A stretch of DNA of 64,000 nt from positions 992,001 to 1,056,000 of the forward strand of contig NZ_AP019373.1 of assembly GCF_004323595.1 (NCBI RefSeq), written 5' to 3'. The position numbers and the translations under genes were made by a program. This DNA is from Sulfuricystis thermophila. GTDB taxonomy: Bacteria; Pseudomonadota; Gammaproteobacteria; Burkholderiales; Rhodocyclaceae. Positions within the stretch are counted from its first letter, which is position 1. Every line of letters starts with the position of its first letter. Positions 1-63,151 of the stretch are shown piece by piece. The notes below the pieces were generated by a model, which searched no databases, was not told the DNA's origin, and saw only the letters and a program-made list of their open reading frames with translations.

Positions 1-1700
1 GCGCGTTGCAGGGCTGCTTCTGGCGACTCGTCGGGGCCGAGCTCGGCGACGCCGCAACTGAAGGTGATCAGCACTTTCTGGTTGTCATGCAGGAAGAAGT
101 GTCGCGTCAGCTCGCGTTGCACGCGTTGCATCGCCGTGACGGCCTCTTCCAGCGCGGTGTTGGGCAACAGAATGACGAATTCCTCGCCGCCGTAGCGCGC
201 CAGCGTGTCTGAGGGTCGGATGGTCGCTCCCACGACCTTGGCCAGATGCACCAGCGCGGCATCGCCGGCGGCATGCCCCAAGGCATCGTTGAGCTTCTTG
301 AAATCGTCGATGTCGAGCAAGGCAAGACAAAGCTGGCTGCCGTGGCGCCGGGCGCGCGAAACCTCGGTCTCGATCGCTTCGTCCATGCCTTTGCGGTTGA
401 GCGCGCCGGTGAGGGGATCGTGGCGCACCAGTTCGCTCGCCTGGGCGAGCTCCTGCTGCAGGCGCTGCACTTCCGCTTCGGCCGCCGCGACTTTCTGGCG
501 CATCTGCTGCAGCTCGTCGTGGGTGCGCCGGGCATCGAGCTGGGCCGCGCGTGTTGCGTTCATCACTTCGTCGAGCACCTGGGTCAGCTCGGCAATGTCG
601 CTGGCCTGGCTGATTTTTTCGGCGCAGCGCTCGAGCTTGTCGTGGTAGCTGCCGGTCGAGGCGGAAAAGTCGGCCAGCCGGTCGACGAAGCTGGCGAGCA
701 TCGCCTTGAGCTGTTCCTGGGCCTCGGTGAGGCTCTTTTTCAGCGCGCTTTGCTTGTAGATGACCTCCTTCATGCGGCGCTCGACTTCATCGAGCCGACG
801 CAGATCGAGCGGCTGGGCGACCAACTCGAGCACGGTCGCGATCTGGCCATGCAGCCAGCGGTCGTCGATCACCAGCTCGCGGATGTTGTCGATGATGAGA
901 TGCAGCAGATGGAGCAGGGCAGCGCGGATCTCGTTCTGATCTTCGGCAACGAAATGCAGCCGATAGGCGAAACGTTTCAATGCAGCGACGAGCTTCGCGA
1001 CGTCGTCGTTGCCGCGAGCGCTGCGAGCCGCGCCGGCCAATTGGCGCGCTTCGTCGAGCAGGGTGTCGTCGTCGCCGATGACGAGCGCGATCGTGGTCTC
1101 GAGGATCTGGGCGAGCAGTTCGAGCAGGTCGCGGGTCGTGTCGCCAAGCGTGGCCGGGGGGGCTGTGTCGGACAAACTCGGCGCTGGCGCACCGGCACCG
1201 CTGGGCTCGGCAGCAGCATCAAAAGTGGCGCTTTCCAGCGTGCCTGCCTGCGACCAGCTCTTCAGTAGCCCCTGGAGCCGGGTGTAGAGCAGTTCCGGCG
1301 AGGATGTGGCGCTCAGCACGTGTTCGAGCGCTTCGCGTTTGCGTGCTGGTGTGAGTTCGGCCTGGCGCATCTCCAGCCGGGTCAGCAGCTCACGGATCAA
1401 CGCGGACCAGTTGGGCGGCTCCTCCGCCGACCTGGCGAGTAATTCGTCGAGCGCGGCCTTCACCGTTTCCCAGTTTTTTTCCTCGATCGCGTTTTCGATC
1501 TGGCGCGCGAAGCGCAGCTGTTCCGGCGTCCTGCGTGGCAGGCCGGCGAGCAGTCTTTTCAGCAATTTTTCCGGGAAGGGCTCCTGGGCCGTGGTGCCAG
1601 CGATTTCATGGTAGAGCGCCCGGTAGTTGTCCGGTGTCGGTGCGATGCGCTGCTGCGCCAGCCGTTTGAGGGTTTCGCGGGCGATTTCGAAGGGCGTCAT
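1..1700 (-). CDS. Diguanylate cyclase (GGDEF), C-terminus cut by window edge
   Basis: Makes the second messenger cyclic di-GMP from two GTP. The reading frame starts at the ATG complement at 1698-1700 (MTPFEIARET) and runs off the window at base 1, giving about 566 residues. The active-site motif is GGEEF at residues 504-508, with an RPSD product-inhibition site (RxxD) five residues before it, so the enzyme is probably active and feedback-controlled. The long N-terminal part is helical and has no membrane segment that I see, so the protein is likely cytosolic; its sensory input is unknown. It lies 18 bases after the response-regulator gene on the same strand and may be co-transcribed with it. 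One copy of the 26-bp repeat falls in a linker read as GAGAPAPSL. Confidence 0.9.
   Translation of the reverse strand, partial: MTPFEIARETLKRLAQQRIAPTPDNYRALYHEIAGTTAQEPFPEKLLKRLLAGLPRRTPEQLRFARQIENAIEEKNWETVKAALDELLARSAEEPPNWSALIRELLTRLEMRQAELTPARKREALEHVLSATSSPELLYTRLQGLLKSWSQAGTLESATFDAAAEPSGAGAPAPSLSDTAPPATLGDTTRDLLELLAQILETTIALVIGDDDTLLDEARQLAGAARSARGNDDVAKLVAALKRFAYRLHFVAEDQNEIRAALLHLLHLIIDNIRELVIDDRWLHGQIATVLELVAQPLDLRRLDEVERRMKEVIYKQSALKKSLTEAQEQLKAMLASFVDRLADFSASTGSYHDKLERCAEKISQASDIAELTQVLDEVMNATRAAQLDARRTHDELQQMRQKVAAAEAEVQRLQQELAQASELVRHDPLTGALNRKGMDEAIETEVSRARRHGSQLCLALLDIDDFKKLNDALGHAAGDAALVHLAKVVGATIRPSDTLARYGGEEFVILLPNTALEEAVTAMQRVQRELTRHFFLHDNQKVLITFSCGVAELGPDESPEAALQR
1174..1199 (+). 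repeat. 26-bp dispersed repeat, copy 1
   Basis: Matches the family (AAAsTCGGCGyTGG, 4 bases, ACGGCACC) except C for A at the first base of the second block. It is antisense to the diguanylate cyclase gene and is read there as G-A-G-A-P-A-P-S. Confidence 0.85.
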
Positions 1701-1718
1701 TGCCGCAGATCCGGATGA

Positions 1719-2360
1719 TCAGTCGACGAGGCCGTGCCGCAGGCCGTAGTGGATCAGCTCGGCGGTGCTCTTGAGTCCCATTTTCTCCAGCAGGCGCGCG
1801 CGGTAGGTGCTGACCGTGGCGACGCCCAGATTCAGTTCGTCGGCGATCTGCGTCAACGGCTTGCCTTGGGCGATCATCACCAGCACCTGATATTCGCGGT
1901 CGGTGATGCGCTCGTGCGGCAGTTTCTCAGTGTCGTCGGCGATGGCTTCGGCAAGCTGCTGGGCAACGCCCGGGCTGACATATTTCTTGCCGCGCGCGAC
2001 CTGACGGATCGCGGTGACGAGCTGGTCCGGCGCGCTTTGCTTGGTTAGATAGCCGGAAGCGCCGGCTTTTAGCGCGCGCAGCGCATACTGTTCTTCGGGA
2101 TGCATGCTGAGGATCAGCACCGGTTGCTTGGGAAACTCGCGCTTGAGCTGCTTCAGTGTGTCGATGCCGTTGCGGTTGGGCATCGAGATGTCGAGCAGGA
2201 AAACATCCCATTCGTTCTGGCGGGCGATGGCGAGCGCATCGACGCCATCGTCGGCTTCGCCGGCGACGACGAGGTCTTCGGTTTCGGAGAAAATCTGCTT
2301 GAACCCCTGACGCACGATGGCATGGTCGTCGGCGATCAGGACACGGATTTTTTCTGCCAT
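1719..2360 (-). CDS. NarL/LuxR-family response regulator
   Basis: DNA-binding partner of the sensor kinase encoded just upstream. The receiver domain (about residues 5-120) has the acidic pair D11/D12, phospho-acceptor D57 in FLLDISMP and a conserved lysine in YLTKQ. The C-terminal LuxR-type helix-turn-helix follows (LTDREYQVL to VSTYRARLLEKM). Length is 213 residues, usual for the family. I chose the ATG at 2360 (MAEKIRVLIADD) because it begins one base after the kinase stop; a longer frame to 2414 would overlap the kinase. Kinase, regulator and diguanylate cyclase look like one transcription unit. Target genes cannot be read from the sequence. Confidence 0.9.
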   Translation of the reverse strand: MAEKIRVLIADDHAIVRQGFKQIFSETEDLVVAGEADDGVDALAIARQNEWDVFLLDISMPNRNGIDTLKQLKREFPKQPVLILSMHPEEQYALRALKAGASGYLTKQSAPDQLVTAIRQVARGKKYVSPGVAQQLAEAIADDTEKLPHERITDREYQVLVMIAQGKPLTQIADELNLGVATVSTYRARLLEKMGLKSTAELIHYGLRHGLVD

Positions 2361-2361
2361 T

Positions 2362-3882: not shown

Positions 3883-3936
3883 GGCATGGCCGGATGACCC
3901 GAATACTGGATTCTAGGATAGGCAATGCTCGCAGTT

Positions 3937-3942
3937 TATAAT
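3937..3942 (+). promoter_or_regulatory. -10 box upstream of tRNA-Thr
   Basis: A perfect TATAAT lies 18 bases before the tRNA. No good -35 hexamer is visible at 17 bp spacing. The divergent kinase gene starts at 3882, so the kinase promoter probably shares this gap. Confidence 0.5.
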
Positions 3943-3959
3943 CTGCGTTTGCAGCATGT

Positions 3960-4035
3960 GCCGGCATAGCTCAGTCGGTAGAGCAACCGCCTTGTAAGCG
4001 GTAGGTCACCAGTTCGAATCCGGTTGCCGGCACCA
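3960..4035 (+). tRNA. tRNA-Thr (TGT)
   Basis: A full cloverleaf with encoded CCA. The acceptor arms GCCGGCA/TGCCGGC pair perfectly. The anticodon stem ACCGC/GCGGT encloses loop CTTGTAA with anticodon TGT. The T-arm has one A-C mismatch (ACCAG/CCGGT). Confidence 0.95.
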
Positions 4036-4071
4036 TTTTCAATTTCCCCTGTCGAGGCACACTGTGTGCCG

Positions 4072-6249
4072 ATGAGCGCAAAAGTCCGCTTCATTCTGGC
4101 CGTGGTCATGCTGCTGCTGGTGATGACCGCACCCGTGGCCCTGACGATGGTGATTGCCCTACACGAGTTGCAGGGCGAGGAGCGTACTGCTTTTCTAGTC
4201 ATCCTCGATCGTTGGCTGCCAGTCGGCCTGATGTTCTGGATGATTGCGCTGCTGCTCGGCGTGCAGGGGCTGCGGATCGTCTTCAAACAATATGTGCGCG
4301 GCATTTCGGCGCTGGCGGAACGGCTCCGTGTGATGATCGATGCCAACCGGGCCTACCGCATCACGCCCACCGGCCCGCCGGAAGTCCATGCTCTGGCCGA
4401 AGCGGCGAATGCGCTGGCCGATGCGCGCGACGCGCTGCAGGCCGATGTCGAGTCGCGCATCGCGGCCGCCAAGGCGGCAACCGAGGAGGAAAGAAACCGG
4501 CTTGCCGCGCTGGTCGCCGATCTGCCGATGCCGGTGCTGGTCTGCAATCTCGACGGCCGTATCCTGCTCTACAACAATCATGCCCGCCTGCAGGTGCGTG
4601 CGCTGGTGCCGGATGCCCATGCCGGCGGCGGCGTGATCGGTCTGGGCCGTTCGATCTACGGGGTCTTCGACCGTTCGCTGATCGGTCATGCGTTGGAATC
4701 GTTGCAACATCGTCTGGAGCGCGCGGGTGGCCGGCCGCTTGCTCACTTCATCACGACGACGCGCGCCGGACAGCTGATTCGTGTGCAGATGGCACCCGTG
4801 CTGTCCTCTGCCGCTCACCAAGACGAGGTGGCAGAGGCGGGTGCGCAGCCCGGCATCGCCGGTTATGTGCTGGTGATGGAAAACATCACCAAGCAGCTCG
4901 AAAGCGGCGCGCACTGCGATCGCACCGTGCAGGCGCTGGCCGACGATACGCGCGCGGCGCTCGCAGGAATCCGCGCCAGTTTGCATGGTTTGCGCGGCAG
5001 CGTTGCGCTGGACGAGGTGCAAGCCATCGCCGATGCCATCGAGGACGAGATCCAGATTCTCACCGTGCGACTCAACCAGTCCGCCCAGGAGTATGCGAAT
5101 ACGCTGATCGGCCGCTGGCCGCTCGAAGACATGCTCGGCGCCGATCTGGTGACGGCGGTCGGACGACGCATCGAGAAGCGGCTTGGTCTCACGGCGAAGA
5201 TCGACGATGTGGCGGATGATCTCTGGGTTCGCGTCGATAGCTACTCGCTCACCCAGGCGATGACCTTCCTTGCCGCGAAGCTGGACGAGAGTTTCGGCGT
5301 CAGGCTGGTGCGTCTGCGGCTCGCCCGCACCGGGCGCATGGCCCAGCTGGAGCTGCATTGGGCCGGCACGGCGGTATCGACCGAAACCTTGCTCGGCTGG
5401 CAGCTCGAACCGATGACGATCGCCGGGGAAACCACACCGCTCACGTTGCGAGATGTCACCGACCGCCATGGCGGTCAGCTTTCCTGCGGCCGCAGCGCTG
5501 CGATCCAGCAATCCTTCTTCCGCATTGAGATTCCGGCCGCCGTGGCACAGGAAAGTGGTGAAGGCGCCTCGCTCATCCAGGTCGAGAGCCGGCCGGAGTT
5601 CTACGATTTCGATCTGTTCCATCGCGCCGGCGAGGATCGCACCAGCGACGACATGCCCCTTGCGGCACTCACCTACACGGTCTTCGATACCGAAACCACG
5701 GGTCTCGAGCCCTCCGCAGGTGACGAGATCATCCAGATCGGCGCGGTGCGCATCGTCAATGGACGTCTGCTGCGCCACGAGAACATCGACCAGCTCATCG
5801 ATCCGCAGCGCCCATTGCGTCCCGAAGGCATTCCGATTCACGGCATCACCGAGGAAATGGTGCGCGGTCAGCCGACCATCGCCTCCGTCCTGCCGCAGTT
5901 CCACCGCTTTTGCGAAGGAACCGTCCTGGTCGCGCACAACGCCGCCTTCGACATGCGCTTCCTGCAGCTTAAGGAAGAAAAGCTCGGGATACGCTTCACC
6001 CAGCCGGTGCTCGACACACTGCTGCTCTCAGCGGTGATCCACCCCAACCAGGAATCGCACAAGCTCGAAGCGATCGCCGAGCGGCTCGGCATCACGATCA
6101 TCGGCCGCCATACCGCGCTCGGCGATGCGATCGTCACCGCCGAGGTGTTCCTGCGCATGCTGCCGCTGTTGGCCGACAAGGGCATCCACACCCTCGGCCA
6201 GGCGCGGGCGGCGGCGGAAAAGACTTACTACGCCCGAGTGAAGTATTGA
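4072..6249 (+). CDS. Membrane PAS sensor fused to DEDDh 3'-5' exonuclease
   Basis: A 725-residue fusion. Two membrane helices (about 5-27 and 45-65) are followed by a HAMP-like linker, a PAS domain (about 145-290), and a region resembling the dimer-plus-ATPase part of a histidine kinase but without a recognisable phospho-His box. The C-terminus (about 533-725) is a DnaQ-type exonuclease: D539 and E541 in FDTETTG, D627 in HNAAFD, and H680 with D685 in HTALGD, so all DEDDh metal and catalytic residues are present. The start chosen is the ATG at 4072 (MSAKVRF); the longer frame would run into the tRNA. The exonuclease is probably cytosolic and membrane-tethered. It is not the replicative epsilon subunit, which is a short soluble protein. 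Its substrate is unknown. Confidence 0.85.
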   Translation: MSAKVRFILAVVMLLLVMTAPVALTMVIALHELQGEERTAFLVILDRWLPVGLMFWMIALLLGVQGLRIVFKQYVRGISALAERLRVMIDANRAYRITPTGPPEVHALAEAANALADARDALQADVESRIAAAKAATEEERNRLAALVADLPMPVLVCNLDGRILLYNNHARLQVRALVPDAHAGGGVIGLGRSIYGVFDRSLIGHALESLQHRLERAGGRPLAHFITTTRAGQLIRVQMAPVLSSAAHQDEVAEAGAQPGIAGYVLVMENITKQLESGAHCDRTVQALADDTRAALAGIRASLHGLRGSVALDEVQAIADAIEDEIQILTVRLNQSAQEYANTLIGRWPLEDMLGADLVTAVGRRIEKRLGLTAKIDDVADDLWVRVDSYSLTQAMTFLAAKLDESFGVRLVRLRLARTGRMAQLELHWAGTAVSTETLLGWQLEPMTIAGETTPLTLRDVTDRHGGQLSCGRSAAIQQSFFRIEIPAAVAQESGEGASLIQVESRPEFYDFDLFHRAGEDRTSDDMPLAALTYTVFDTETTGLEPSAGDEIIQIGAVRIVNGRLLRHENIDQLIDPQRPLRPEGIPIHGITEEMVRGQPTIASVLPQFHRFCEGTVLVAHNAAFDMRFLQLKEEKLGIRFTQPVLDTLLLSAVIHPNQESHKLEAIAERLGITIIGRHTALGDAIVTAEVFLRMLPLLADKGIHTLGQARAAAEKTYYARVKY

Positions 6250-6250: not shown

Positions 6251-7336
6251 TCATTGCCCGCTGGTGGCGCGGATCGCGGCGGCGGCGCGCCGGTAGAGTT
6301 CCAGCGCCCGTGTGCGGTCACCGGCGGCTTCGGCGGCACGGGCGCGTTCCAGCAGCTGGTCGGCGTCGGTGCCATCGCCTTCGGCGTAGCTGACCGACAG
6401 CGACTGTTTTTCCGGTGCGCTGCGCTTGGCGCGGATGACCAGTGCCTTGGGCGACTTTGGCGCCTGGCCCGTGTCCTTCTGTGCCGTCCTGCCAGCGCCG
6501 ACTTTTTGCGGTTCCTGCCGGCTCTTCAGCTCGTCCCAAGCCTGCCGGTAAGCCAAGAGCGCCGCGTCGCGCTTGCCTTCGAGTTCGGCCAGCCGCGCCT
6601 TGCGCAGCAGTTCATCGACGCGGTCCGGCGCCTGAGCCGAGCGCACGGGCGGAGCAGGCGGATTTTCCGCGGCCTGGCGAGCGAGGGCGGCAAAGTTCTC
6701 GGCGCTGGTGAAGAGCTTGGCGATGTCGTAGTTGCCCTGCCGCATCGCCCAGGCGACGGCATCGTCGTCAGAGTCGTTCTTCAAGGCCGGGTTCGCGCCC
6801 GCTTCGAGCAAGCGTCGCGCCAGCTCGCCATGCCCTTCGCGCGCGGCCATCATCACCACTGTCGAGCCGTTGGTCGAACGCACATTGACCTCGGCGCCGG
6901 CGGCGAGCAGGTCTTCGACCACGCGGGCATGGCCGGCAAAAACGGCATAGTGCAATGCCGTCCAGGCGCGTTCCTTGCCCGGATTGGGGTGGGCGCCGTG
7001 GTCGAGCAGCCAGCGCAGCGCCGCCTGCTGGTTTTTCCACGCGGCGAGCATCAGCGCCGATTCACCGAAGCGGTTGGTGCGATCGATGTCGGCGCCGCGG
7101 GACAGGAACAGTTCCATCAGCGCAATGTTGCCGGTCCACGCCCCGATCATCAGTCCGGTGCCGATCAAGTGCCCTTCGAAGTTCGGATCGAGACCCTCAT
7201 CGAGCCAGGCCGCGGCCTGCTGGGTGTCGCCCAATTCGAGCCGAACGGAGAAACGCACCGGATCGGGCAGTTCCGCATGAGCGGGTAGCGCGGCGAGCAC
7301 CAGCGCCGAAAGGCAAGTCAGCAGCAGGTGTTTCAT
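6251..7336 (-). CDS. Secreted ankyrin-repeat protein with TPR-like C-terminus
   Basis: 361 residues from the ATG at 7336 (MKHLLLTC), which gives a clear signal peptide ending near ALPAHA. Ankyrin repeats fill about residues 30-190 (for example GESALMLAAWKNQQAALRWL and ALHYAVFAGHARVVEDLLAA). Two short TPR-like helical pairs follow (around DELLRKARLAELEGK and ADQLLERARAAEAAGD), separated by a basic linker that carries a copy of the 26-bp repeat (QKVGAGRTAQ). The likely role is periplasmic protein-protein contact; the partner is unknown. It converges with the exonuclease gene, with stops two bases apart, and its start faces the TonB-like gene, so 7337-7372 must hold divergent promoters. Confidence 0.8.
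   Translation of the reverse strand: MKHLLLTCLSALVLAALPAHAELPDPVRFSVRLELGDTQQAAAWLDEGLDPNFEGHLIGTGLMIGAWTGNIALMELFLSRGADIDRTNRFGESALMLAAWKNQQAALRWLLDHGAHPNPGKERAWTALHYAVFAGHARVVEDLLAAGAEVNVRSTNGSTVVMMAAREGHGELARRLLEAGANPALKNDSDDDAVAWAMRQGNYDIAKLFTSAENFAALARQAAENPPAPPVRSAQAPDRVDELLRKARLAELEGKRDAALLAYRQAWDELKSRQEPQKVGAGRTAQKDTGQAPKSPKALVIRAKRSAPEKQSLSVSYAEGDGTDADQLLERARAAEAAGDRTRALELYRRAAAAIRATSGQ
6480..6505 (-). repeat. 26-bp dispersed repeat, copy 2
   Basis: Sense to the ankyrin gene, in frame as K-V-G-A-G-R-T-A-Q. It matches the consensus everywhere except the last base and the variable block. Confidence 0.85.
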
Positions 7337-7372: not shown

Positions 7373-7882
7373 ATGGTGACAAAGCGATTCTTTCTGGCGC
7401 TGTTGATTAGCCTCGCACTGCATACACTCATCCTGGTACCGTTCGAGTGGTGGTGGCCGCACCGCAGCATGGCGCCTCTTCCGGTCGCGCTGGCCGTGCG
7501 TTTGCCGCCCCTGGCGCAGACGGACGCGCTGGCCACGATGGTCGATGAACCGCCGCTGCCCCCGCGTGCCGTTGCGCCAGCGCCGAGTCCGACGCCTCGC
7601 GAGCCGCCGCGCCCGTTGCGTGGCAAGGCGTTGCAATCGGCGCTGGCCGCCTTGACCCGTGAGGAGTTCTATCCCCGCGAGGCCATCGAACGGGGGCTGG
7701 AGGGCCGCGTCGTGCTGCTCCTGACGCTCGACGATTCCGGCCGTGTGGCGCGCATCGAGGTGGCGAGCTCTTCCGGCCATGCGCTGCTCGACGATGCGGC
7801 GCGCCAGGCGGCCGCGCGCATCACTCGCCTGCCTGCCGACCGCCGTCAGGTGCTGCTGCCCGTGGAGTTTCGCCTCGAATGA
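7373..7882 (+). CDS. TonB-family energy transducer (short)
   Basis: 169 residues with one N-terminal membrane anchor (about 5-25), a proline-rich periplasmic linker (about 45-85) and a TonB C-terminal fold (about 90-169; YPREAIERGLEGRVVLLLTL and ASSSGHALLDDAAR are typical). TonB couples the inner-membrane proton gradient to outer-membrane receptors. This is shorter than classical TonB (about 240 residues) and has no exbB/exbD or receptor gene beside it, so it may serve another system. The proline linker contains an antisense copy of the 26-bp repeat. It overlaps the next gene by four bases (ATGA). Confidence 0.8.
   Translation: MVTKRFFLALLISLALHTLILVPFEWWWPHRSMAPLPVALAVRLPPLAQTDALATMVDEPPLPPRAVAPAPSPTPREPPRPLRGKALQSALAALTREEFYPREAIERGLEGRVVLLLTLDDSGRVARIEVASSSGHALLDDAARQAAARITRLPADRRQVLLPVEFRLE
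7565..7590 (-). repeat. 26-bp dispersed repeat, copy 3
   Basis: Antisense within the proline-rich linker of the TonB-like gene, read as R-A-V-A-P-A-P-S-P. The first two and the last base of the consensus differ. Confidence 0.75.
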
Positions 7883-10487: not shown

Positions 10488-12442
10488 CGCTGCTTTCGGT
10501 GAGCGGATTGACCATCGACATCGGTCCCGCTCGTCCGGTCGAGGGCGTCTCGTTCGAAATCGCCCACGGGGAGACTTTCGCGCTGGTCGGAGAATCCGGC
10601 TGCGGCAAGTCGCTCACTGCGCTCGCGCTGATGCGATTACTCCCCGAGGCAGCGCGCATCGCTGGCGGCAGCGTGCATTTTGCCGACATGGATCTCTTTG
10701 CGTTGCCGGAGGCCCAAATGCGCAAGGTGCGCGGCGGCCGCATCGGCATGATCTTCCAGGAGCCGGCGACCAGTCTGAATCCGGTGATGACGGTGGGCGA
10801 GCAGATCGGCGAAGCCTTGCGGCTGCATGGCGGCTCGACGGATGCAAGACGAGTCGTCGAACTGCTCACCGCGGTGGGCATTCCCGATCCCGAGCGGCGG
10901 GCCCGCGAGTATCCGTTCCAGATGTCGGGCGGCATGAAGCAACGGGCGATGATCGCGATGGCGCTGGCCGGTGAGCCCGAGCTGCTGATCGCCGATGAGC
11001 CGACCACCGCGCTCGATGTGACGATCCAGGCCCAGGTACTCGATCTGCTGGCGCAGCTATCCGAAAAGCGCGGCATGGCGATGCTTCTCATCACCCACGA
11101 TCTGGGAGTGGTGGCGAGGATGGCCGCTCGTGTCGGCGTGATGTATGCGGGCGAGCTCGTCGAGATTGCGCCACGCGCCGCTTTTTTCGCCACGCCGGCA
11201 CACCCCTATTCAAAACGGCTCTTCGCTGCCTTGCCCGACTCGGCGGCACGCCGCTCGCGACTGGCGACGATCCCCGGCAGCGTGCCGTTGCCGACCGAGC
11301 GACATGCGGGCTGCCGCTTCGTATCCCGGTGTGCGGAGGCTCTACCGCAGTGCGGCACGGTGCCGCCCCCCTGGCGCGAACCGGCGCCGGGGCATCGTGT
11401 GCGCTGTCATCTGGACGCTTTCGACGTCGGCGTGGTGAAGGGCATCGTCTCGCCGGACGACGATGCGTTGCGTAAAGTCGGCGCTGGCATCACGGCACCC
11501 GCGCACGATGAGGATGGCGAAGTTCCTTCAGCGGATGTCCTGCTCGAAGCGCGCGACATCAAGGTGCATTTCCCGATCCGGCGCGGCGTGCTGCAACGTG
11601 CCGTCGGTTGGGTGCGGGCCGTCGATGGCGTCGATTTTTGCATCGCAAGAGGACGCACGCTGGCGTTGGTCGGCGAATCGGGCTGCGGCAAGACCACGGT
11701 CGGCAAGGCGATCCTCGGCTTGCAGCCGGCGACGGCGGGAACGGTGAAGCTCGCAGGCCGGGTGTTGGATGGGCTGGCGCCCAACGAGATGCAGATGGTG
11801 TTCCAGGATCCGTTCGGCTCCCTGAATCCGCGCCTGCGTATCGATGCCATCGTCCGCGAGGGACGGCCGGAGGCCGACGTCCCGGCCTTGCTGCGCCAGG
11901 TGGGCTTGACGCCGGAGATGGTCAAGCGCTATCCGCACGAATTCTCTGGCGGGCAACGTCAGCGCATCGCGATCGCCCGCGCTTTGGCCGTCGCGCCACG
12001 ACTGTTGATCTGTGACGAGCCGACTTCGGCGCTCGACGTCTCGGTGCAGGCGCAGATCCTCAATCTGCTGCTCGATCTGCAAGCACAGCTGGGGCTCGCC
12101 TATCTCTTCATCACCCACAACATCGCTGCGGTCGGGTTCCTTGCGCATGAGGTGGCGGTGATGTATCTGGGCCGCATCGTCGAACAGGGGACGGTCGAAG
12201 AGGTGTTGGCCAACCCGCGCCATCCCTATACGCAGGCGCTCCTCGCCGCCGTGCCGAAGATCACGGGCGCCCCGGGAGAGCGGCTTTTGGTGCCGGGTGA
12301 CCCGCCCTCGCCGGCGAATCCGCCGCCGGGCTGCCATTTCCATCCGCGCTGCCCGCGCGCAACGGCGCGCTGCCATGCGGCCTATCCGGCGACTGCCGTG
12401 ATTTCGGCGACGCACTGGGTGCGCTGTTATTTTCCCGATTGA
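10484..12442 (+). CDS. Fused double ABC ATPase, OppD-OppF-like
   Basis: 652 residues holding two complete nucleotide-binding halves. Half 1 has Walker A GESGCGKS at 36-43, signature MSGGMKQR and Walker B LLIADEPT. Half 2 has Walker A GESGCGKT at 397-404, signature FSGGQRQR and Walker B LLICDEPT. Each half ends with the oligopeptide-ABC C-terminal cysteine domain (CRFVSRC and CHFHPRCPR). The start ATG at 10484 overlaps the permease stop. The linker between the halves (about 300-345) carries the 26-bp repeat (KVGAGITAP). The organisation matches YejF/GsiA-type fused ATPases. The tail overlaps the converging mltD gene by 16 bases. Confidence 0.9.
11474..11499 (+). repeat. 26-bp dispersed repeat, copy 4
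   Basis: In frame in the linker of the double ATPase, read as K-V-G-A-G-I-T-A-P. Both conserved blocks match the consensus perfectly. Confidence 0.9.
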
Positions 12443-20559: not shown

Positions 20560-21791
20560 CCATGACTGCGAGCGTTCCAACGCGCCGGCCGACGCGGCAG
20601 GTCATGGTCGGCAAAGTCGGCGTTGGCGGGACGGCACCGGTGGTCGTCCAAGCGATGACCAATACCGATACCGCCGACGTCTTCGCCACCGCCCAGCAGG
20701 TTGCGGAGCTCAATCGCGCCGGTGCCGAGATCGTGCGCGTCACGGTGAATACCCGCGAGGCCGCGCTGGCGGTGCCGAAGATCAAGGAGCGGCTGGCGCA
20801 GTTACATTTCGACGTGCCGCTCGTCGGCGACTTCCATTTCAACGGCCACAAGCTCTTGGCGGAAGTGCCGGAATGCGCCGCCGCGCTCGACAAGCTGCGC
20901 ATCAATCCTGGCAACGTCGGCAAGGGGGCCAAGCGTGACGAGCAGTTCGCGCGCATGATCGAATTCGCCTGCCGATACCAAAAGCCCGTGCGCATCGGCG
21001 TCAATTGGGGCAGCCTCGATCAGGAGCTCCTCGCCCGATTGATGGACGAGAATGCCCGTCGCCCGGAACCAAAAGATGCGACGGGGCTGATGCGCGAGGC
21101 GATGGTGGCCTCTGCCCTCGAATCGGCGGCGCAGGCCGAAAAGCTGGGGCTGCCCGGCGATGCGATCGTGCTTTCCTGCAAAGTGAGTGGCGTCCAAGAC
21201 CTGATCGCGATCTACCGTGATCTTTCGGCGCGTTGCGACTATCCGCTGCATTTGGGGCTGACCGAGGCCGGCATGGGCAGCAAGGGCATCGTCGCTTCGA
21301 CGGCGGCGCTCGCCGTGCTGCTGCAGGAAGGCATCGGCGATACGATCCGCGTCTCGCTCACGCCGGAGCCGAATGAGCCGCGCACCAAGGAGGTCGTCGT
21401 CGCGCAGGAAATCCTGCAGACGATGGGACTCAGGGCCTTTACGCCGATGGTGGTCGCCTGTCCCGGTTGCGGGCGCACGAGCAGCACTTTTTTCCAGGAG
21501 CTCGCCCAGGACATCCAAAAATATGTGCGGGCGAAGATGCCGGAGTGGCGGCTCGAACACCGTGGCGTCGAGGAGATGACCGTGGCGGTAATGGGCTGCG
21601 TCGTCAATGGCCCCGGCGAGAGCAAGCACGCCAATCTCGGCATCTCGCTGCCCGGCACGGGTGAAGCGCCGGCAGCACCCGTCTATGCCGATGGCGAACG
21701 CATCACCACCTTGCGCGGCGAGAACATCGCCGCCGAATTCCGCGCCATCATCGACGCTTACGTCGAGAGAACCTACCCGAAACATTCATGA
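20556..21791 (+). CDS. ispG: 4-hydroxy-3-methylbut-2-enyl-diphosphate synthase
   Basis: Converts MEcPP to HMBPP in the non-mevalonate isoprenoid pathway using a 4Fe-4S cluster. 411 residues, the length usual in proteobacteria. Cluster cysteines lie in ACPGCGRTS and [10 protein letters not shown] near the C-terminus; the TIM-barrel start has [10 protein letters not shown]. The N-terminal conserved segment (residues 18-28) contains a sense copy of the 26-bp repeat read KVGVGGTAP, so the repeat sits in protein that is conserved in the family. It overlaps both neighbours by four bases. Confidence 0.95.
20613..20638 (+). repeat. 26-bp dispersed repeat, copy 5
   Basis: In frame in ispG as K-V-G-V-G-G-T-A-P. 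It matches perfectly at all conserved positions (y = T). Confidence 0.85.
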
Positions 21792-23086: not shown

Positions 23087-23749
23087 ATGGCAACCTACGA
23101 TCTCGAAGAACAGGAACAGATTGAAGAGCTGAAGACCTGGTGGAAGATGCACGGCACGCTGGTCACCTCGGTGGTGGTCGCGTTCGCGGTCGCCGTGGTC
23201 GGCTGGCAGGTCTGGCAATGGTGGCAACGCAACGAGGCCGCCAAGGCCGCGCAGCTATTTGGCAACCTGCAGCAGGCGCTGGCGCAGCAGGATGTGAAAC
23301 GCGTGCGCCTCCTGGCCGGAGAGCTCGTCGACAAGCATGCGGGCACGGCCTATGCCGGCATGGCGGCGATGGTCGCCGGCAAGGTGCTGGCCGAGACCGG
23401 CGATCTGAAATCGGCCCAGGCCCAGTACGGTTGGGCGGCGGAACATGCGACGGATCAGGGTACACGCGATCTCGCGCGACTCAGGCAGGCCATCGTGCTC
23501 ATCGAAGAGAAATCCTTCGACGAGGCGTTGAAGCTCCTTGCCGTGCCGCCAACGCCGAATTTGATGGCACGCTTCCTGGAAGTACGCGGCGACGTGCTCG
23601 CCGCCCAAGGCAAGACTAAAGAGGCTCGCAGCGCCTATGAAGAGGCGATCAAGGCGCTCGAAGCCGACCGTCAGGCCGAGGGTCTGCCGCCCGGACCGTA
23701 TCTCGACATCCTGAAGGACAAACGCGACGCGATCGGGGTGGCCTCATGA
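23087..23749 (+). CDS. yfgM: YfgM-family ancillary translocon protein
   Basis: 220 residues: a short cytosolic N-terminus (YDLEEQEQIEELKTWWK), one membrane helix (about 26-45), then a periplasmic TPR-like domain. In Escherichia coli YfgM associates with the SecYEG translocon and the chaperone PpiD. The hisS-yfgM-bamB-der order supports the call. It overlaps bamB by four bases (ATGA). A weak antisense match to the 26-bp repeat lies in the C-terminal half. Confidence 0.88.
   Translation: MATYDLEEQEQIEELKTWWKMHGTLVTSVVVAFAVAVVGWQVWQWWQRNEAAKAAQLFGNLQQALAQQDVKRVRLLAGELVDKHAGTAYAGMAAMVAGKVLAETGDLKSAQAQYGWAAEHATDQGTRDLARLRQAIVLIEEKSFDEALKLLAVPPTPNLMARFLEVRGDVLAAQGKTKEARSAYEEAIKALEADRQAEGLPPGPYLDILKDKRDAIGVAS
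23538..23562 (-). repeat. Weak, 25-nt copy of the dispersed repeat
   Basis: Antisense in yfgM. TCGGCG and CACGGCA are present, but one base is missing from the variable block and the ends differ. It could be chance. Confidence 0.4.
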
Positions 23750-28234: not shown

Positions 28235-29415
28235 CTACAGGCCAGCACGGCCAGTCACCCGAGCCAAACCGCCGGCAGCTCACGCGGCTGGCCGTTTGGT
28301 ATTTGTTTTATTTCGCCTTCGTCGGGGCGTTTGCGCCGTATTTCACACTCTATCTCCAGGACGCCGGTCTGTCGGCCAGCGAGATCGGCGTGTTGATGTC
28401 CGTTCCGCAGGTGATGCGCCTCGTGGCACCGAATCTCTGGGGATGGCTTGCCGACCACCTCGGCGTACGCGCCGCGGTGGTCAAGTTCGCCGCGTTCGGG
28501 GCACTCATCGGTTTCACTGGTTTCTTCCTGTCTCGCGATCTACTCGTGCTGTTCGCCGCGATGGCGCTCGTCTGGTTCTTCTGGAGCGCCGCATTGCCGC
28601 TCGTCGAGGCGATGACCCTCGACCGGCTCGCTGGGCAGGCCGAGCGTTACGGTAGCATCCGCTTGTGGGGTTCGATCGGTTTCATCGCCAGCGTACTCGG
28701 GCTGGGCGCACTGCTCGATCACCTGCCGATCGGCGCGGTCCTCTGGGCCTGTTTCGCGATCCTTGCCAGCGTGCTGGCCAGCGCCATGATGCTCGAAGAA
28801 ACGAAACTCGGCGTTCGTGGCACGGCACCCCCGATTGGCGCGCGCTTGCGTCGGCCTGCGGTGATGGCGCTCCTGGCCGCGTGCTTTTTCATGTCGGTCG
28901 CGCATGGCCCACTCTATGTGTTCTTCTCGATCCATCTCGTCGCGCATGGCTACGACAAGCTATCGGTCGGGATGTTCTGGTCGCTCGGCGTGATCGCCGA
29001 GATCGTCGTCTTCATGAACATGCCACGGCTGATGGGCCATGTTTCGCTGCGTGCCATCCTGCTGGCGAGTTTTGCGTTGGCCGTGCTGCGCTTCCTGCTG
29101 ATCGGCTGGGCGGCGGATCATCCCGTGGCGCTGCTGTTTGCCCAACTGCTTCATGGTGCGACCTTCGGCGCCTATCACGCTGCAGCGATGGCGGTGCTGA
29201 TCCGCTGGTTCGAACCTGCCCAGCAGGCGCGCGTCCAGGGCGTTTATGGCAGTATTTCGTTCGGTGCCGGCGGCATGGTGGGCGGCCTGCTCAGCGGCCA
29301 GGCATGGGACCCCCTCGGCGCCGGCATGACCTATACGCTCGGGGCGCTATTTGCCGCCTGCGGCTGGCTGTTGATCTGGCGTGGCTTGTCAGCGCAATCA
29401 CTCACAACGCGTTGA
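28231..29415 (+). CDS. Major facilitator transporter, nucleoside/phenylpropionate-type
   Basis: 394 residues with 12 membrane helices. The pattern YLFYFAFVGAFAPYFTLYLQDAGLSASEIG and RLWGSIGFIASVLGLGAL matches the branch containing the E. coli HcaT and NupG/XapB carriers. The substrate is unknown. The start is inferred as the TTG overlapping the preceding stop; no in-frame ATG exists before the first helix. The central cytosolic loop contains an in-frame copy of the 26-bp repeat (KLGVRGTAP). Confidence 0.82.
   Translation: MTTGQHGQSPEPNRRQLTRLAVWYLFYFAFVGAFAPYFTLYLQDAGLSASEIGVLMSVPQVMRLVAPNLWGWLADHLGVRAAVVKFAAFGALIGFTGFFLSRDLLVLFAAMALVWFFWSAALPLVEAMTLDRLAGQAERYGSIRLWGSIGFIASVLGLGALLDHLPIGAVLWACFAILASVLASAMMLEETKLGVRGTAPPIGARLRRPAVMALLAACFFMSVAHGPLYVFFSIHLVAHGYDKLSVGMFWSLGVIAEIVVFMNMPRLMGHVSLRAILLASFALAVLRFLLIGWAADHPVALLFAQLLHGATFGAYHAAAMAVLIRWFEPAQQARVQGVYGSISFGAGGMVGGLLSGQAWDPLGAGMTYTLGALFAACGWLLIWRGLSAQSLTTR
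28804..28829 (+). repeat. 26-bp dispersed repeat, copy 6
   Basis: In frame in the middle loop of the MFS carrier, read as K-L-G-V-R-G-T-A-P. One mismatch in the first block (C for G at position 14 minus one). Confidence 0.8.
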
Positions 29416-36972: not shown

Positions 36973-37620
36973 ATGCAGCGCACGCGCGTCAAGATCTGCG
37001 GTATCACGCGCAGTGAGGATCTCGCCGCCGCAGTGGCGGCAGGTGCCGATGCCGTCGGTTTCGTCTTTTACCCTCCCAGTCCACGCCATCTGCTGGTCGA
37101 AACGGCTGCCAGGCTCTCGCGGCGAGTGCCGCCATTCGTCGCTCGGGTCGGCCTGTTCGTGAATGCCGAACCGGCCAGCGTTCGCGAAACGCTCGCCCAG
37201 GTGCAGCTCGATCTGTTGCAGTTCCATGGCGACGAGGATGCCCGCTACTGCGAACAGTTTGGCCGGCCGTATCTGAAAGCGGCGCGGGTGAAGCCGGGGA
37301 TCGATCTGTTAGAATTCGCCCGCGCTTTCCCGACCGCCCAGGGATTGCTGCTCGATGCCTGGAGCACAGCCTATGGCGGAACGGGGCAAACCTTCGACTG
37401 GTCGCTGATCCCTGAAAACCTGCCGCTGCCGGTCATTCTGTCGGGCGGGCTCCACGCAGGCAATGTCGGCGATGCGCTGGTCAGGATTCGGCCTTGGGCG
37501 GTGGATGTCAGCAGCGGGGTCGAGCAGGCCAAGGGCATCAAGGATGCCGCAAAAATCGCCGCCTTCATGGCGGCAGTGAGAATGGCAGATGACGCACGAC
37601 AATTACAGTTTGCCCGATGA
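36973..37620 (+). CDS. trpF: Phosphoribosylanthranilate isomerase
   Basis: Tryptophan synthesis step 3, a TIM-barrel enzyme of 215 residues. The active-site Cys is in [11 protein letters not shown] and the Asp in [30 protein letters not shown] binds phosphate. The ATG at 36973 was chosen; an in-frame TTG at 36961 is possible. The last 32 bases overlap trpB in another frame, an unusually long overlap for this pair, suggesting tight translational coupling. Confidence 0.95.
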
Positions 37621-38794
37621 ACGGGGCCATTTCGGCAGATACGGCGGTATCTTCGTCGCCGAGACGCTGATTCCTGCACTCACCGAGCTGGCGGCGGCCT
37701 ACGAGGATGCGCGCAACGACCCCGCCTTCCGCGCCGAATTCGAGCAGGAACTGACGCATTATGTCGGCCGCCCAAGCCCGATCTACCATGCGCGGCGCTG
37801 GTCTCAGGCGCTCGGCGGCGCGCAGATCTATCTGAAGCGCGAAGATCTCAACCACACCGGCGCGCACAAGATCAACAACGGCATCGGCCAGGCGCTGCTG
37901 GCGCGCCGCATGGGCAAGCGGCGCGTCATCGCCGAGACCGGCGCAGGCATGCACGGCGTCGCGACGGCCACCGTCGCCGCACGCTATGGCATGGAATGCG
38001 TGGTTTACATGGGCTCGGAAGACGTCAAGCGCCAGTCGGCCAACGTCTATCGGATGAAAGTGCTCGGTGCGACGGTGGTGCCGGTCGAGTCCGGCTCGAA
38101 GACGCTCAAGGATGCGCTCAACGAGGCGATGCGCGACTGGGTGACGAATGTCGAGAATACCTTCTACATCATCGGCACGGTGGCCGGGCCGCATCCTTAC
38201 CCGATGATGGTGCGCGATTTCCAGTCGGTGATCGGCAAGGAGTGCATCACACAAATGTCGGCTATGGTGGGACGGCAGCCCGACCAGGTGATCGCCTGCG
38301 TCGGCGGCGGTTCCAATGCGATGGGCATCTTCTACGACTTCATTCCCAATGAAAAAGTCAAGCTGGTCGGCGTCGAAGCCGCCGGCCTGGGGATCGAGAC
38401 CGGCCGCCATGCCGCATCATTGACCGCTGGCCGCCCGGGGGTGCTGCACGGCAACCGCACCTATCTGTTGCAGGACGACAATGGCCAGATCATCGAGACG
38501 CATTCGATTTCCGCCGGCCTGGACTATCCGGGCGTCGGCCCCGAGCACGCCTGGCTCAAGGACAGCGGCCGGGCGGAGTATGTGACCGTCACGGACGAGG
38601 AAGCACTGGCCGCGTTTCACGACCTGTGTCGCTACGAGGGCATCATTCCGGCGCTGGAATCGAGCCATGCGCTCGCCTACGCGGCGCGAACCGCGCGCGG
38701 CTTGCCGAAGGACCGCATCCTGCTCGTCAATCTATCCGGCCGTGGCGACAAGGATCTGCACACCGTTGCCGAGCGCGCCGGGATAAGGTTCTGA
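37589..38794 (+). CDS. trpB: Tryptophan synthase beta chain
   Basis: PLP enzyme that joins indole and serine, in complex with TrpA. 401 residues; PLP lysine K94 in [22 protein letters not shown] phosphate-binding loop. It starts inside the end of trpF. Directly after its stop (TGA at 38792-38794) comes an ATG for an unrelated small gene, so the usual trpB-trpA adjacency is broken by a two-gene insertion. Confidence 0.97.
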
Positions 38795-40980: not shown

Positions 40981-42263
40981 TGTCGCCGCGCGGTCTGGCC
41001 GACTGGCTCGCCATCCTGGAAAGCCTGCATCCGAAAGGGCAGGCGGGCATCGAGCTCGGTCTCGATCGGGTACGACGCGTTTCCCAGGCGCTCGACCAGC
41101 GTCCGTTCTGCCCGGTGATCACCGTCGGCGGCACCAACGGCAAGGGTTCGACCTGTGCGCTGCTCGAGCGCATCCTGCTTTGTGCCGGCTACCGAGTCGG
41201 CGTCTATACTTCGCCGCATCTGCTTTCCTATAACGAGCGTGTGCGCATCGACGGCGTGCCGGCAGACGATGCAGCCTTCTGCGCGGCATTTACGCGCGTC
41301 GAGGCGGCGCGGCGCGGGGTGCCGCTCACCTATTTCGAATTCGGCACGCTGGCCGCCTGGGAGATGTTCGCGGCCGCCCGCCCTGATGCCATCATCCTCG
41401 AAGTGGGCCTGGGGGGGCGGCTCGACGCGACGAACATCTACGATGCCGACTGCGCGGTCGTCACCAGCATCGAGCTCGATCACACCGACTATCTCGGCCC
41501 GACCCGCGATCACATCGGTCGCGAGAAAGCCGGCATTGGCCGTCCTGGTCGACCGCTGATCTGTGGCGATGCGGATCCGCCGACTGGGTTCATCGAGGCG
41601 TGCCGTACCGCCAGCGCCGAGTTTCGCTGCCTCGGTCGCGATTTCGGTTATCTGCGTCAAGAAAACCAGTGGCAATTCTGGAACCTCACGGGGCGGCGGC
41701 TTGGTGGTCTGGCCCATCCTGCCTTGCGCGGCGAATGCCAGTTGAGCAACGCAGCTTGCGCGATCGCCGCGCTCGATGCGCTGCATGAGCGCTTGCCGGT
41801 TACCGCCCAAGACATCCGCCGCGGCCTGGCGGAGGTCGAGCTGGCAGGACGCTGCCAAGTGCTGCCGGGAAGGCCGCAGATCGTCCTCGATGTCGCCCAT
41901 AATCCCCAGGCGGCAGCGGAGCTTGCACGCAACCTCGGCAACATGGGATATGCCCGTACGACCTGGGCCGTCTTCGGCATGATGGCCGACAAGGATATTG
42001 CCGGCGTAGTCGAGGCGATGCGTCACCGGGTCGATCGCTGGCTGCCCTGCGACCTGCCGGCGCCGCGCGCGGCGTCTGCGGCGCAGTTGGCCGGAATCAT
42101 CGAAAAAGTCGGCGCTGATGGCACGGCACCGAACTTCGTTTCTCCCGAGACAGCGTTGCGCCATGCACAGGAGAACGCAGAAGCCGATGATAGAATTTTG
42201 ATCTTCGGATCATTCCTGACGGTGGCGGGGGTGATGCGTTCCCTGAATCGCAGCGGTGGCTGA
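40980..42263 (+). CDS. folC: Dihydrofolate/folylpolyglutamate synthase
   Basis: Makes dihydrofolate from dihydropteroate and adds glutamates. 427 residues; ATP loop GGTNGKGSTCALLER; GLGGRLDATNIYD; SIELDHTDYLGPTRDHIGREKAGI; C-terminal ligase domain with VLDVAHNPQAA. It overlaps accD by one base. It carries two copies of the 26-bp repeat, one antisense (41599-41624) and one sense (42105-42130, EKVGADGTAPN), 480 bases apart. Confidence 0.95.
41599..41624 (-). repeat. 26-bp dispersed repeat, copy 7
   Basis: Antisense in folC, read C-R-T-A-S-A-E-F, the only coding copy in that frame. Only the final base and the variable block differ from consensus. Confidence 0.85.
42105..42130 (+). repeat. 26-bp dispersed repeat, copy 8
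   Basis: In frame in folC as K-V-G-A-D-G-T-A-P. One mismatch (A at position 14). Confidence 0.85.
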
Positions 42264-46163: not shown

Positions 46164-46187
46164 GGACTTGCAAGCAGACACAGCATG

Positions 46188-46231
46188 CCGTGCCGTCAGC
46201 GCCGACTTTTCATCAGCCCGGGCACGGTTTT
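46188..46231 (+). terminator. Possible terminator after metZ
   Basis: CCGTGCC and GGCACGG arms (7 bp, loop of 26) followed by TTTT. The left arm is part of the shortened dispersed repeat. Confidence 0.35.
46189..46209 (-). repeat. Shortened (21-bp) copy of the dispersed repeat
   Basis: AAAGTCGGCGCTG runs directly into ACGGCACG: five bases around the variable block are missing, and the last base differs. Intergenic between metZ and the DUF2863 gene. Confidence 0.7.
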
Positions 46232-51503: not shown

Positions 51504-51938
51504 ATGTCTTCGACCAAGCCATACCTGATCCGTGCCATTTATGAGTGGTGCGTCGATAACGGCCACACCCCCTACCTCGTGGTCCAGGTGGATGCGCATA
51601 CCCGCGTCCCGCGTGAATATGTCCGCGACGGGCAGATCGTGCTCAACATCAGTCCGGAGGCAACCCATCAACTGATGATGGGCAACGACGAGATCAGCTT
51701 TCAGACACGCTTTGGCGGTGCGCCCTTTCAGGTCAGTGTGCCGGTGGCCGCGGTTGCGGCGATCTATGCACGCGAAAATGGCCAAGGCATGGCCTTCGAG
51801 GTGACGGCGGAGGAGGCATCCGCAACTGAGGGAAAAGTCGGCGCTGGCGAGACGGCACCCGAAGCCACTGAACCTGCAGTCGAACGAGCGGTAGAGCACG
51901 CCACGAAGCGTAGCGTCCATCTGACCCGGGTCAAATGA
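51504..51938 (+). CDS. sspB: ClpXP adaptor SspB
   Basis: Delivers ssrA-tagged proteins to the ClpXP protease. 144 residues from the ATG at 51504. The folded domain (about 3-105) has LIRAIYEWCVDNGHTPYLVVQVD and NISPEATHQLMMGNDEISF. The acidic flexible tail ends in LTRVK, like the ClpX-binding tail of E. coli SspB. The tail contains a perfect sense copy of the 26-bp repeat (KVGAGETAP). Confidence 0.95.
   Translation: MSSTKPYLIRAIYEWCVDNGHTPYLVVQVDAHTRVPREYVRDGQIVLNISPEATHQLMMGNDEISFQTRFGGAPFQVSVPVAAVAAIYARENGQGMAFEVTAEEASATEGKVGAGETAPEATEPAVERAVEHATKRSVHLTRVK
51834..51859 (+). repeat. 26-bp dispersed repeat, copy 9 (reference copy)
   Basis: In frame in the flexible tail of sspB as K-V-G-A-G-E-T-A-P. 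It matches the consensus at every conserved position. Confidence 0.9.
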
Positions 51939-56151: not shown

Positions 56152-56177
56152 GAAATCGGCGCTGGTGGAACGGCACT
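56152..56177 (+). repeat. 26-bp dispersed repeat, copy 10
   Basis: Intergenic, two bases after the dnaB stop. Mismatches at the ends (first and last base) and A at position 4. Confidence 0.75.
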
Positions 56178-57627: not shown

Positions 57628-57654
57628 CGGTTCTCGGGGCGGGGGGTGGCGAGG

Positions 57655-58952: not shown

Positions 58953-59332
58953 GCCGGGTCTTTTTCAAGGATCAGCGCGGCCAGGGGCAGACGTCCTTCG
59001 CCGACCAGGATGTTGTAGGTGCGGCAGGCGGCCGCCGTGTCCATGATCTCGAAACCGCGGCCGGCTTCGACCAGCGGACGCAACAGTTCGGGTGCCGGGA
59101 AGCGCTGACGGCGGCCGGTACCGAGCAGCACCACATCGCAGGAAAAGGCAGCGAGGTGCACGACATGCTCGATGCTCAGACCGGCATAGGCATCGGGGCC
59201 CCATTGCTCGTCGAGGCGATCGGGCAGGAGCAGCAGGCTGCGCGTCAGCACACGGCCGCCTACCGCAATGAAATCACTGGCGTAAGCAGTGACGATGTTG
59301 TCGTTGCCGTGGGGATCGGGTTGAAGCTTCAA
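58949..59332 (-). CDS. Mth938-like (DUF498/NDUFAF3-type) protein
   Basis: 127 residues from a TTG start; no ATG is in frame near the N-terminus. The pattern NDNIVTAYASDFIAVGGRVLTRSLLLLP, LLGTGRRQRFP and EIMDTAAACRTYNILVGEGR matches the Mth938 fold, related to NDUFAF3 of mitochondrial complex I assembly. The bacterial role is unknown. First gene of the minus-strand group; 59333-59443 holds its promoter and that of alaA. Confidence 0.82.
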   Translation of the reverse strand: MKLQPDPHGNDNIVTAYASDFIAVGGRVLTRSLLLLPDRLDEQWGPDAYAGLSIEHVVHLAAFSCDVVLLGTGRRQRFPAPELLRPLVEAGRGFEIMDTAAACRTYNILVGEGRLPLAALILEKDPA

Positions 59333-59443
59333 GGCGGGTCTGTGGGCAAAGCTGCGTGCGGCCGCGGCATGCTTGCGATTGCCGCAGGGCGGGTCATTCG
59401 GTAGGATTATAACCTTTCGTTTTTTTCGTCCTCACTAGCCGTC

Positions 59444-60670: not shown

Positions 60671-60704
60671 TTTTTCTCGTTTCTGATTCTTCGACCCAAC
60701 ATCC

Positions 60705-62027: not shown

Positions 62028-62038
62028 AACGCCACACG

Positions 62039-63151
62039 ATGCTGGTCTGGCTGGGCGTCTGTGCCATCGTGGCCTTTCTGGCCGCATTGGCTGCGACGCT
62101 GGGTGCCGTGTCAGCAGCGCCGACTTTCCACATCGCTTTCGCAGTGGGCGCCTTGCCGCTGATCTTCGGCGCGATCGGCCACTTCGTGCCGGTGCTGACA
62201 AGAAGCCGCGCTCCCGCGCCGGTGATCCATTACCTGCCGCTCGTCGTACAGGCGGCGGGGATCCTCGTCCCGCCGGCACTGGCGGGATGGTTGCCGTACT
62301 GGACGCTGCATCTTTCCGCGACGGTCGATGCGGCTGCCGCGCTGCTGCTGTTATTCTGGATTTCCCGCCGGCTGCGGGCAGCGCTCGGCGCGCCGCATCC
62401 GGGTGCGCATTGGTATGGCGCGGCGCTGCTGTGCCTCTTCTTCGCCGTCAGTCTGGTGCCGGTCTGGCTGGCGGTGCCGGAGTTGCGCGCGGCGCTGCGC
62501 CTTTTCCACCTGCATCTCAATACGCTCGGTTTCATCGGTCTGGCGGCGCTCGGCACGCTGCCGGTGTTGTTGCCGACCGCGCTGCGGCAGCCTGAGCCGA
62601 CGGCGGCCACGCGCTTGCGTATCGACCTCTTGCCGGCGCTCGTCGGGGTCGTGCTGGTCGCGGCCGGAGCGGCGACGGGCTTCTGGCTGGCCGTGCCTGG
62701 CGCCCTGCTGCTTTTCTGGGTGGTTGGGCGAGATCTTCGGGCCTGGTGGCGTGCCTACGGGCGCAAACTCGGCGCTGGCGAGACGGCACCTCTGCTGATC
62801 GCAAGCGTGGGATTCCTGTTACTCCTCGTCGTCGGCCTCGCGCATGGCGTGGGCTGGATCGCGGCTCGGCCGGCGCTTTCCGGCTATGTCGCGCTGTTTC
62901 TGCTGCCGCTCGTCAGCGGCGCGCTCGCGCAACTGCTGCCGGTCTGGCGTTATCCCGGGGCGGATTCACCGGCGCGTCAGGCGTTGCTGCACCGCCTGAC
63001 CCGGGGTGGGCCTGTCCGGGCAGCGCTGTTCTTCGTTGCCGGACTGGCATTGCTGTTCGACCTACCCTTTGCAGGAGTTCCGGCGGCACTGGCGCTCGCC
63101 GACTTCGTCCTGCGCCTGATGGCCGCACTCTATAATCCGCGCCAGTCCTGA
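62039..63151 (+). CDS. Polytopic membrane protein of unknown function between hom and thrC
   Basis: 370 residues with about ten membrane helices. Several His lie near helix ends: FHIAFAVGALPLIFGAIGHFVP, LFHLHLNTLGFIGLAALGT and GLAHGVGWIAA. This recalls NnrS- or cytochrome-oxidase-like heme-binding helices, but I cannot name the family. It starts 11 bases after hom. It carries two repeat copies, one antisense near the N-terminus (62102-62127) and one sense in a loop (62765-62790, RKLGAGETAP). Confidence 0.75.
   Translation: MLVWLGVCAIVAFLAALAATLGAVSAAPTFHIAFAVGALPLIFGAIGHFVPVLTRSRAPAPVIHYLPLVVQAAGILVPPALAGWLPYWTLHLSATVDAAAALLLLFWISRRLRAALGAPHPGAHWYGAALLCLFFAVSLVPVWLAVPELRAALRLFHLHLNTLGFIGLAALGTLPVLLPTALRQPEPTAATRLRIDLLPALVGVVLVAAGAATGFWLAVPGALLLFWVVGRDLRAWWRAYGRKLGAGETAPLLIASVGFLLLLVVGLAHGVGWIAARPALSGYVALFLLPLVSGALAQLLPVWRYPGADSPARQALLHRLTRGGPVRAALFFVAGLALLFDLPFAGVPAALALADFVLRLMAALYNPRQS
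62102..62127 (-). repeat. 26-bp dispersed repeat, copy 11
   Basis: Antisense in the membrane protein gene, read G-A-V-S-A-A-P-T-F across a helix end. One mismatch in the first block (position 14); the second block is perfect. Confidence 0.85.
62765..62790 (+). repeat. 26-bp dispersed repeat, copy 12
   Basis: In frame in a loop of the same protein as K-L-G-A-G-E-T-A-P. It differs from the sspB copy by one base only (C for G at position 4). Confidence 0.9.

Follow-up and report, generated by a model that had tools for sequence, protein, structure and literature searches.

A dispersed 25-bp bipartite motif of Sulfuricystis thermophila as a candidate DNA uptake sequence of the Rhodocyclaceae

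In the chromosome of Sulfuricystis thermophila, a single contig of 2,737,315 bases (2.74 Mb), an asymmetric, bipartite motif of 25 bp recurs 509 times, with 254 copies on the plus strand and 255 on the minus strand, against 0 and 0 for the reversed pattern used as a control. A preliminary description had pointed to this repeat in a stretch of 64 kb (hereafter the window) and had seen in it an uptake-type signal. We consider that the motif most likely serves a third bacterial family as a DNA uptake sequence (probability of roughly 0.6), and this is our best reading because of its distribution, its dialects and the origin of its copies by substitution, all traits that match those of DNA uptake sequences. 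Such sequences are stated to be known only from Neisseriaceae and Pasteurellaceae (PMC12616744). Among the papers listed, and judging by titles and the first lines of abstracts, none reports uptake sequences in Rhodocyclaceae, and no paper was found that links uptake to this family, to Rhodocyclales or to Sulfuritalea.

Form and abundance of the motif

Unless the whole genome is stated, detailed statistics refer to the window plus 40 stretches of 20 kb, i.e., a sample of 864 kb in which gene positions were provided by a simple custom gene caller. Derived from 185 copies with full flanks and at most 4 mismatches, the motif reads AAA[G/C]TCGGCGCTGG[C/T][G/A][G/A]nACGGCAC. Hardly any shared signal extends beyond these 25 bp, and the summed information amounts to about 35 bits, a value that is inflated because the copies were chosen by similarity. 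The repeat had initially been given a length of 26 bp with four freely varying middle bases; the 26th base proves to be almost devoid of information, and the middle shows a preference for C/T, G/A and G/A followed by a weaker one for G.

With at most 3 mismatches, the two-block pattern has 14 matches in the window and none in each of 100 dinucleotide shuffles, which confirms the repeat as real, and all 14 places first noted (13 and a weak one) are present. Allowing 4 mismatches to the trimmed 25-mer brings the count to 16, the additions being located at 4302 and 38254. Over the 864 kb, the reversed pattern gave 0 matches versus 163 for the motif with at most 3 mismatches, and 4 versus 22 with exactly 4. 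In a synonymous-codon control preserving the encoded peptides, 182 copies (at most 3 mismatches) were counted against 14-21 in 10 shuffles. Copies in the hundreds, far over chance and in both orientations, are what is seen of uptake sequences. The folds of three single-motif forms did not surpass those of shuffled sequences (z -0.31 to -1.04).

Distribution and dialects in the Rhodocyclaceae

The search for the motif in related species covered 199 genomes of the family and 386 others of the order, and it located the motif in family relatives with a spelling that differs by genus. Using the strict pattern, 22 family genomes belonging to 7 of 68 genera contain 72 to 645 copies, while G023 has 21 and the remainder 0 to 13. 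Outside the family, a nearly equal pattern reached a maximum of 8 copies in the 386 genomes sampled; G279, a member of another family, contains 7, of which two are exact. A relaxed pattern, which is no blind prediction since matches with an altered core suggested it, raised the number of family genomes rich in copies to 29 of 199 (10 genera), each with at least 92, against at most 17 in the others and at most 6 in reversed controls. Genomes of g66, g11 and g23 are gained in this way, yet G179, G155 and G084, which belong to these genera, have only 8, 9 and 1 copies, respectively.

The consensus forms of these dialects differ in the core and in the end block. The core GGCGCTGG is the consensus in g1, g46 and g64 and is also present in copies of g2, g9 and g38, while other cores are GACGCTGG in g45, AGCCGTGG-like in g66 and AGTCCC-like in g11 (sites behind each consensus: g1, 182; g46, 34; g66, 34, with 1 in the control; g64, 27; g11, 21; g45, 10; g23, 6). 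For G023, motif refinement was abandoned because it drifted towards a periodic signal, and the dialect given for this genome is based on 6 sites. Words obtained de novo from motif-poor genomes were also discarded: those examined in G057 and G065 are clusters in a single stretch, in G023 seven of eight lie in one stretch, and in G026 they are few (5). Of note, G101 contains a second over-represented word, AAGAAGCCTGT (L296-L300, L224 and L255-L258).

G065 has 2 copies though it stands near carriers in a six-gene, midpoint-rooted tree, which comprises genomes of genera other than g66 and g11 and in which the positions of G065 and G023 have poor support (51 and 44, respectively). Among the matches listed, the exact motif occurs in named records that are mostly Rhodocyclaceae, Sulfuritalea, Sulfurisoma or Rugosibacter, with some broader names, Tepidicella xavieri once and, also once, a record labelled Gammaproteobacteria. 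By most named records, the family with dialects is the Rhodocyclaceae.

Origin and conservation of the copies

The origin of copies was examined in ten carriers and in 20 kb of the window by aligning the segments they encode with those of ten relatives, all motif-poor except G023, later found to have another dialect. Among 39 coding sites, 32 could be tested, and 256 of 275 alignments are ungapped at the site; these alignments are not independent, because carriers share sites. They indicate that the tested coding copies arose via substitution in existing sequence and not by insertion. A similar alignment test on the Haemophilus uptake signal sequence (USS) is reported to have had the same outcome, i.e., substitution and not insertion (PMC1626085).

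Regarding conservation, the named loci were fetched for carrying the motif and sharing is therefore favoured. In 50 shared entries, identity is 0.90 at the site versus 0.77 in the flanks, a mean that excludes all other entries, namely 4 ungapped absences (0.65 versus 0.75) and 21 gapped ones. Treating all 75 entries by one rule gives 0.791 versus 0.753, a difference reached by 11 of 5000 random-window resamples, most shared sites being counted twice. Within the 25 non-shared entries, 9 have a partner copy within 40 columns, 4 of these on the opposite strand. A conservation of sites above their flanks holds for the 50 shared entries only and fails over all places, and we do not claim it.

Placement along the chromosome and in genes

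Of 189 copies, 128 lie wholly in genes, 14 across a gene edge and 47 between genes, corresponding to densities of 0.166/kb within genes versus 0.503/kb in intergenic regions (about threefold). All six frames are occupied, although unevenly (45, 4 and 23 along the gene; 2, 38 and 16 against it), and the position of copies along genes shows no bias. The overall density is about one copy per 5.4 kb, with gaps between copies evener than under random placement (coefficient of variation 0.70 versus 0.89, with 0 of 2000 as low) and only two pairs closer than 200 bp, both direct. Neither a replichore polarity (87 copies leading versus 102 lagging, p 0.31, the terminus being set by GC skew) nor a trend with the distance from base 1 was detected in the sample.

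Three of the 40 stretches are free of copies. Two belong to prophages: all 10 proteins scanned there have PHROG matches, and they include terminase, portal, primase and annealing proteins; the third, judging by the starts of its open reading frames (ORFs), presumably carries genes for RNA polymerase, an elongation factor and ribosomal proteins.

Copies in the window

Scored against the trimmed 25-mer, the copies of the window are distributed among diverse genes and gaps. The copy at 1174..1198 (plus strand, 1 mismatch) is inside a GGDEF-domain gene of the opposite strand, and a weak one at 4302..4326 (plus, 4 mismatches) is inside an exonuclease-domain gene (4066-6249). They are followed by a perfect copy in an ankyrin-repeat gene (6481..6505, minus, 0 mismatches), by one in a TonB C-terminal domain gene of the opposite strand (7566..7590, minus, 2 mismatches), and by two further perfect copies, one in a peptide ABC transporter ATPase gene (11474..11498, plus, 0 mismatches) and one at the start of ispG (20613..20637, plus, 0 mismatches). 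The copy inside the gene 23087-23749, which has no NCBIfam match at 1e-10, had been listed as weak; it is indeed present, but on the minus strand and with only 2 mismatches (23538..23562). An MFS transporter gene contains the copy at 28804..28828 (plus, 1 mismatch) and the gene 37589-38794 the other weak one (38254..38278, plus, 4 mismatches), while folC holds both 41600..41624 (minus, 0 mismatches) and 42105..42129 (plus, 1 mismatch). Located between genes, 21 bp past a stop codon, the copy at 46185..46209 (minus, 2 mismatches) had been called shortened, whereas it is in fact of full length (46184-46209). Finally, sspB includes 51834..51858 (plus, 0 mismatches), the copy at 56152..56176 (plus, 2 mismatches) is intergenic with converging neighbours, and the gene 62039-63151, without family match, contains both 62103..62127 (minus, 1 mismatch) and 62765..62789 (plus, 0 mismatches).

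Stray, hairpin and viral copies

Around copies in copy-poor genomes, 15 stretches were fetched and ten genes scanned. These stray copies are inside HlyD-family genes adjoining an RND pump gene and inside DNA methylase, primase-like and ABC transporter genes; another copy adjoins a gene for a restriction-type helicase, and a transposase is present in one of the pump stretches. We read them as probable imports from carriers. In G083 and G129, which are of one genus, and in G018, an HlyD-type gene next to a pump gene contains a copy ending in GAGACGGCGGT; a similar one, GAGACGGCAGT, is found in G279, of a different family, in a gene with the corresponding position (loci L314, L323, L325 and L322, Pfam confirming the gene in L314 and L325 only). 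These resemblances suggest that an efflux cluster was recently transferred.

The motif also forms the basis of a hairpin module of 54 bp, whose inverted arm is altered. This module has 15 units with at most 1 mismatch in the 864 kb (L154, L157, L160, L162, L165, L172, L175, L176, L180 and L186), some in tandem, and is also present in records of the same genus (L032, L245, L246 and L248); 7 of the 15 units are called intragenic, a call that may be wrong. In a viral contig, a 316-bp tandem repeat of 4.7 copies (L408:629-2238) has five exact motifs in or just after it, and we take its unit to resemble integron attC sites.

Interpretation and alternatives

If the motif is an uptake sequence, it would be bound by a type IV pilus protein exposed at the cell surface, with PilE-like and FimT-like minor pilins as candidates solely by analogy; motif-bearing DNA would be preferentially taken up and then recombined, and this bias would build up copies over time. 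Receptor and motif would change together, generating dialects, and the tag could let cells recognise and import DNA of their own kind. Distribution, dialects and substitution origin fit such an uptake-type signal, while no receptor has been found for it.

Several results weigh against uptake. Pilins and ComEC are present in 32 of 32 genomes, motif-poor ones included, and DprA in 25 of 26 (it is missing in the carrier G001); this occurrence speaks for uptake, but none of them splits motif-bearing from motif-poor genomes. ComEA scores above the cut-off of its model in 1 of 15 carriers versus 5 of 11 motif-poor genomes, and the weak match in the genome of S. thermophila itself is an ORF of 832 aa, which looks to us like Tex; a looser pattern revealed no small ComEA-like protein in the sampled part of this genome, and we found no paper on this point. 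The ComEA result is the strongest argument against ordinary competence. No receptor candidate tracking the motif was found, and FimT was rejected as a required receptor, with no GspH match in the carriers G138 and G045, both draft genomes. In the origin test, 19 of 275 alignments have gaps at the site, one site being gapped in 7 of 7. Over 48 unique places, identity is 0.750 at the site versus 0.742 in the flanks, with the site above the flank in 26; copies are kept at 26 of these places and are lost, moved or unalignable at 22. The sequences of Neisseria and Haemophilus type are denser than the one copy per 5.4 kb reported here. Lastly, at least 120 stretches of viral contigs contain the exact motif. 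In L390 and L427, which we take from their ORF starts to be phage DNA, the majority of copies are between genes. The density of extra copies in viral contigs is half that of own pieces (0.74 versus 1.53 per 10 kb). The two own prophage stretches with 0 copies speak for uptake, the Neisserial DNA uptake sequence (DUS) being described as missing from recently acquired genes (PMC2397512); yet phage contigs elsewhere have copies, and absence from phages is therefore not general.

The window does have type IV pilus genes, as noted in the preliminary description, namely pilW and fimV (14 of 63 called genes scanned). However, this makes a weak argument for uptake because both are accessory, a prepilin-motif scan of the window found no pilin, and pilins and ComEC are ubiquitous among the genomes compared. 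Regarding other candidates, relatives of the PilE-like pilin occur in motif-poor genera too, and among the 25 matches listed for it in solved structures no chain is named ComP. An MshA-like pilin, searched for in 38 genomes, was discarded: close matches (51-57% identity) are in the motif-poor G031, G053, G062 and G013, and the carriers G046, G101, G159 and G080 reach at best E 1e-6 to 1e-10. At L241:8256-12763, pilin-like genes adjoin further ORFs, which we read as a pilus ATPase and a platform protein, as in an MSHA pilus locus.

The main rival to uptake, already raised for the window, is an intracellular protein binding the motif to organise, repair or recombine the chromosome. Even spacing, the spread along the sampled chromosome, the two own prophage stretches devoid of motif and the rarity of ComEA in carriers all accord with it. 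We nevertheless hold it to be unlikely: known sites such as KOPS, Chi and MatS have a polarity or a trend along the chromosome, from which the motif differs by showing neither, and its information content, estimated on similarity-chosen copies, exceeds the need of such a protein in 2.7 Mb.

Very improbable in our view is a mobile or REP-like repeat that spreads by inserting copies of itself elsewhere. Coding copies ungapped in most alignments, single motifs folding like shuffles and shared sequence ending at about 25 bp all speak against it, whereas the hairpin module, with its units in the sample and in same-genus records, the gaps at 18 of 48 places in the conservation alignment and a possible origin of intergenic copies by insertion speak for it. 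Slightly less probable still is a transcription terminator or another RNA element at gene ends: 27 of 44 intergenic copies with both neighbours are no more than 30 bp away from the 3' end of a gene (opposite orientation in 21, same orientation in 6), but most copies are wholly intragenic in both orientations, and the T content 3' of the motif at these ends is 0.18 versus 0.16 for gene-overlapping copies (0.32 for the 7 same-orientation copies).

Should uptake be confirmed, the motif would be a third case with dialects, making it possible to compare how the self-recognition of DNA evolves; it would guide the search for a receptor and offer a watermark of gene flow out of the Rhodocyclaceae. A broader scenario, to which we give even odds, is that self-DNA labelling arose a third time, in the Rhodocyclaceae (Betaproteobacteria). 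It would use a long motif in two blocks, whose core has four or more genus-specific spellings, and possibly a periplasmic step with no recognisable ComEA, and stray copies in efflux and methylase genes of other genera would trace gene export from the family.

Comparison with known systems

Like the Neisserial DUS, the motif has hundreds of copies on both strands, in genes and in gaps, with dialects at the genus level, and we take the AT-DUS of Neisseria to share the 7-mer GACGGCA with it. It differs by its 25 bp in two blocks, a DUS having 10-12 bp, and by the lack of simple inverted pairs (the two close pairs are both direct), the hairpin module with its altered arm notwithstanding. According to PMC3630211, a CTG core is kept in all DUS dialects, whereas the motif has no conserved CTG at the matching place.

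USS have AT-rich flanking segments, which are absent around the motif, and the host of the motif is of a different bacterial class. Like the motif, the USS of Pasteurellaceae is long and combines a core with another conserved block, and its coding copies are reported to have arisen by substitution (PMC1626085); its core, AAGTGCGGT (PMC5217627), is unlike the motif.

Repetitive extragenic palindromic (REP) elements and REPINs are dispersed as the motif is, and the motif is part of a hairpin module in the genus. However, the motif is mostly in genes, in every frame, and its single copies fold no better than shuffled sequences, unlike an extragenic palindrome. With no CTG core, no USS core and no fold beyond that of shuffles, the early statement that it is neither a DUS, a USS nor a REP hairpin stands. 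Since it shares GACGGCA, as we assume, but lacks both cores, we class it as a candidate uptake sequence, one that would work in the manner of both known systems while belonging to neither.

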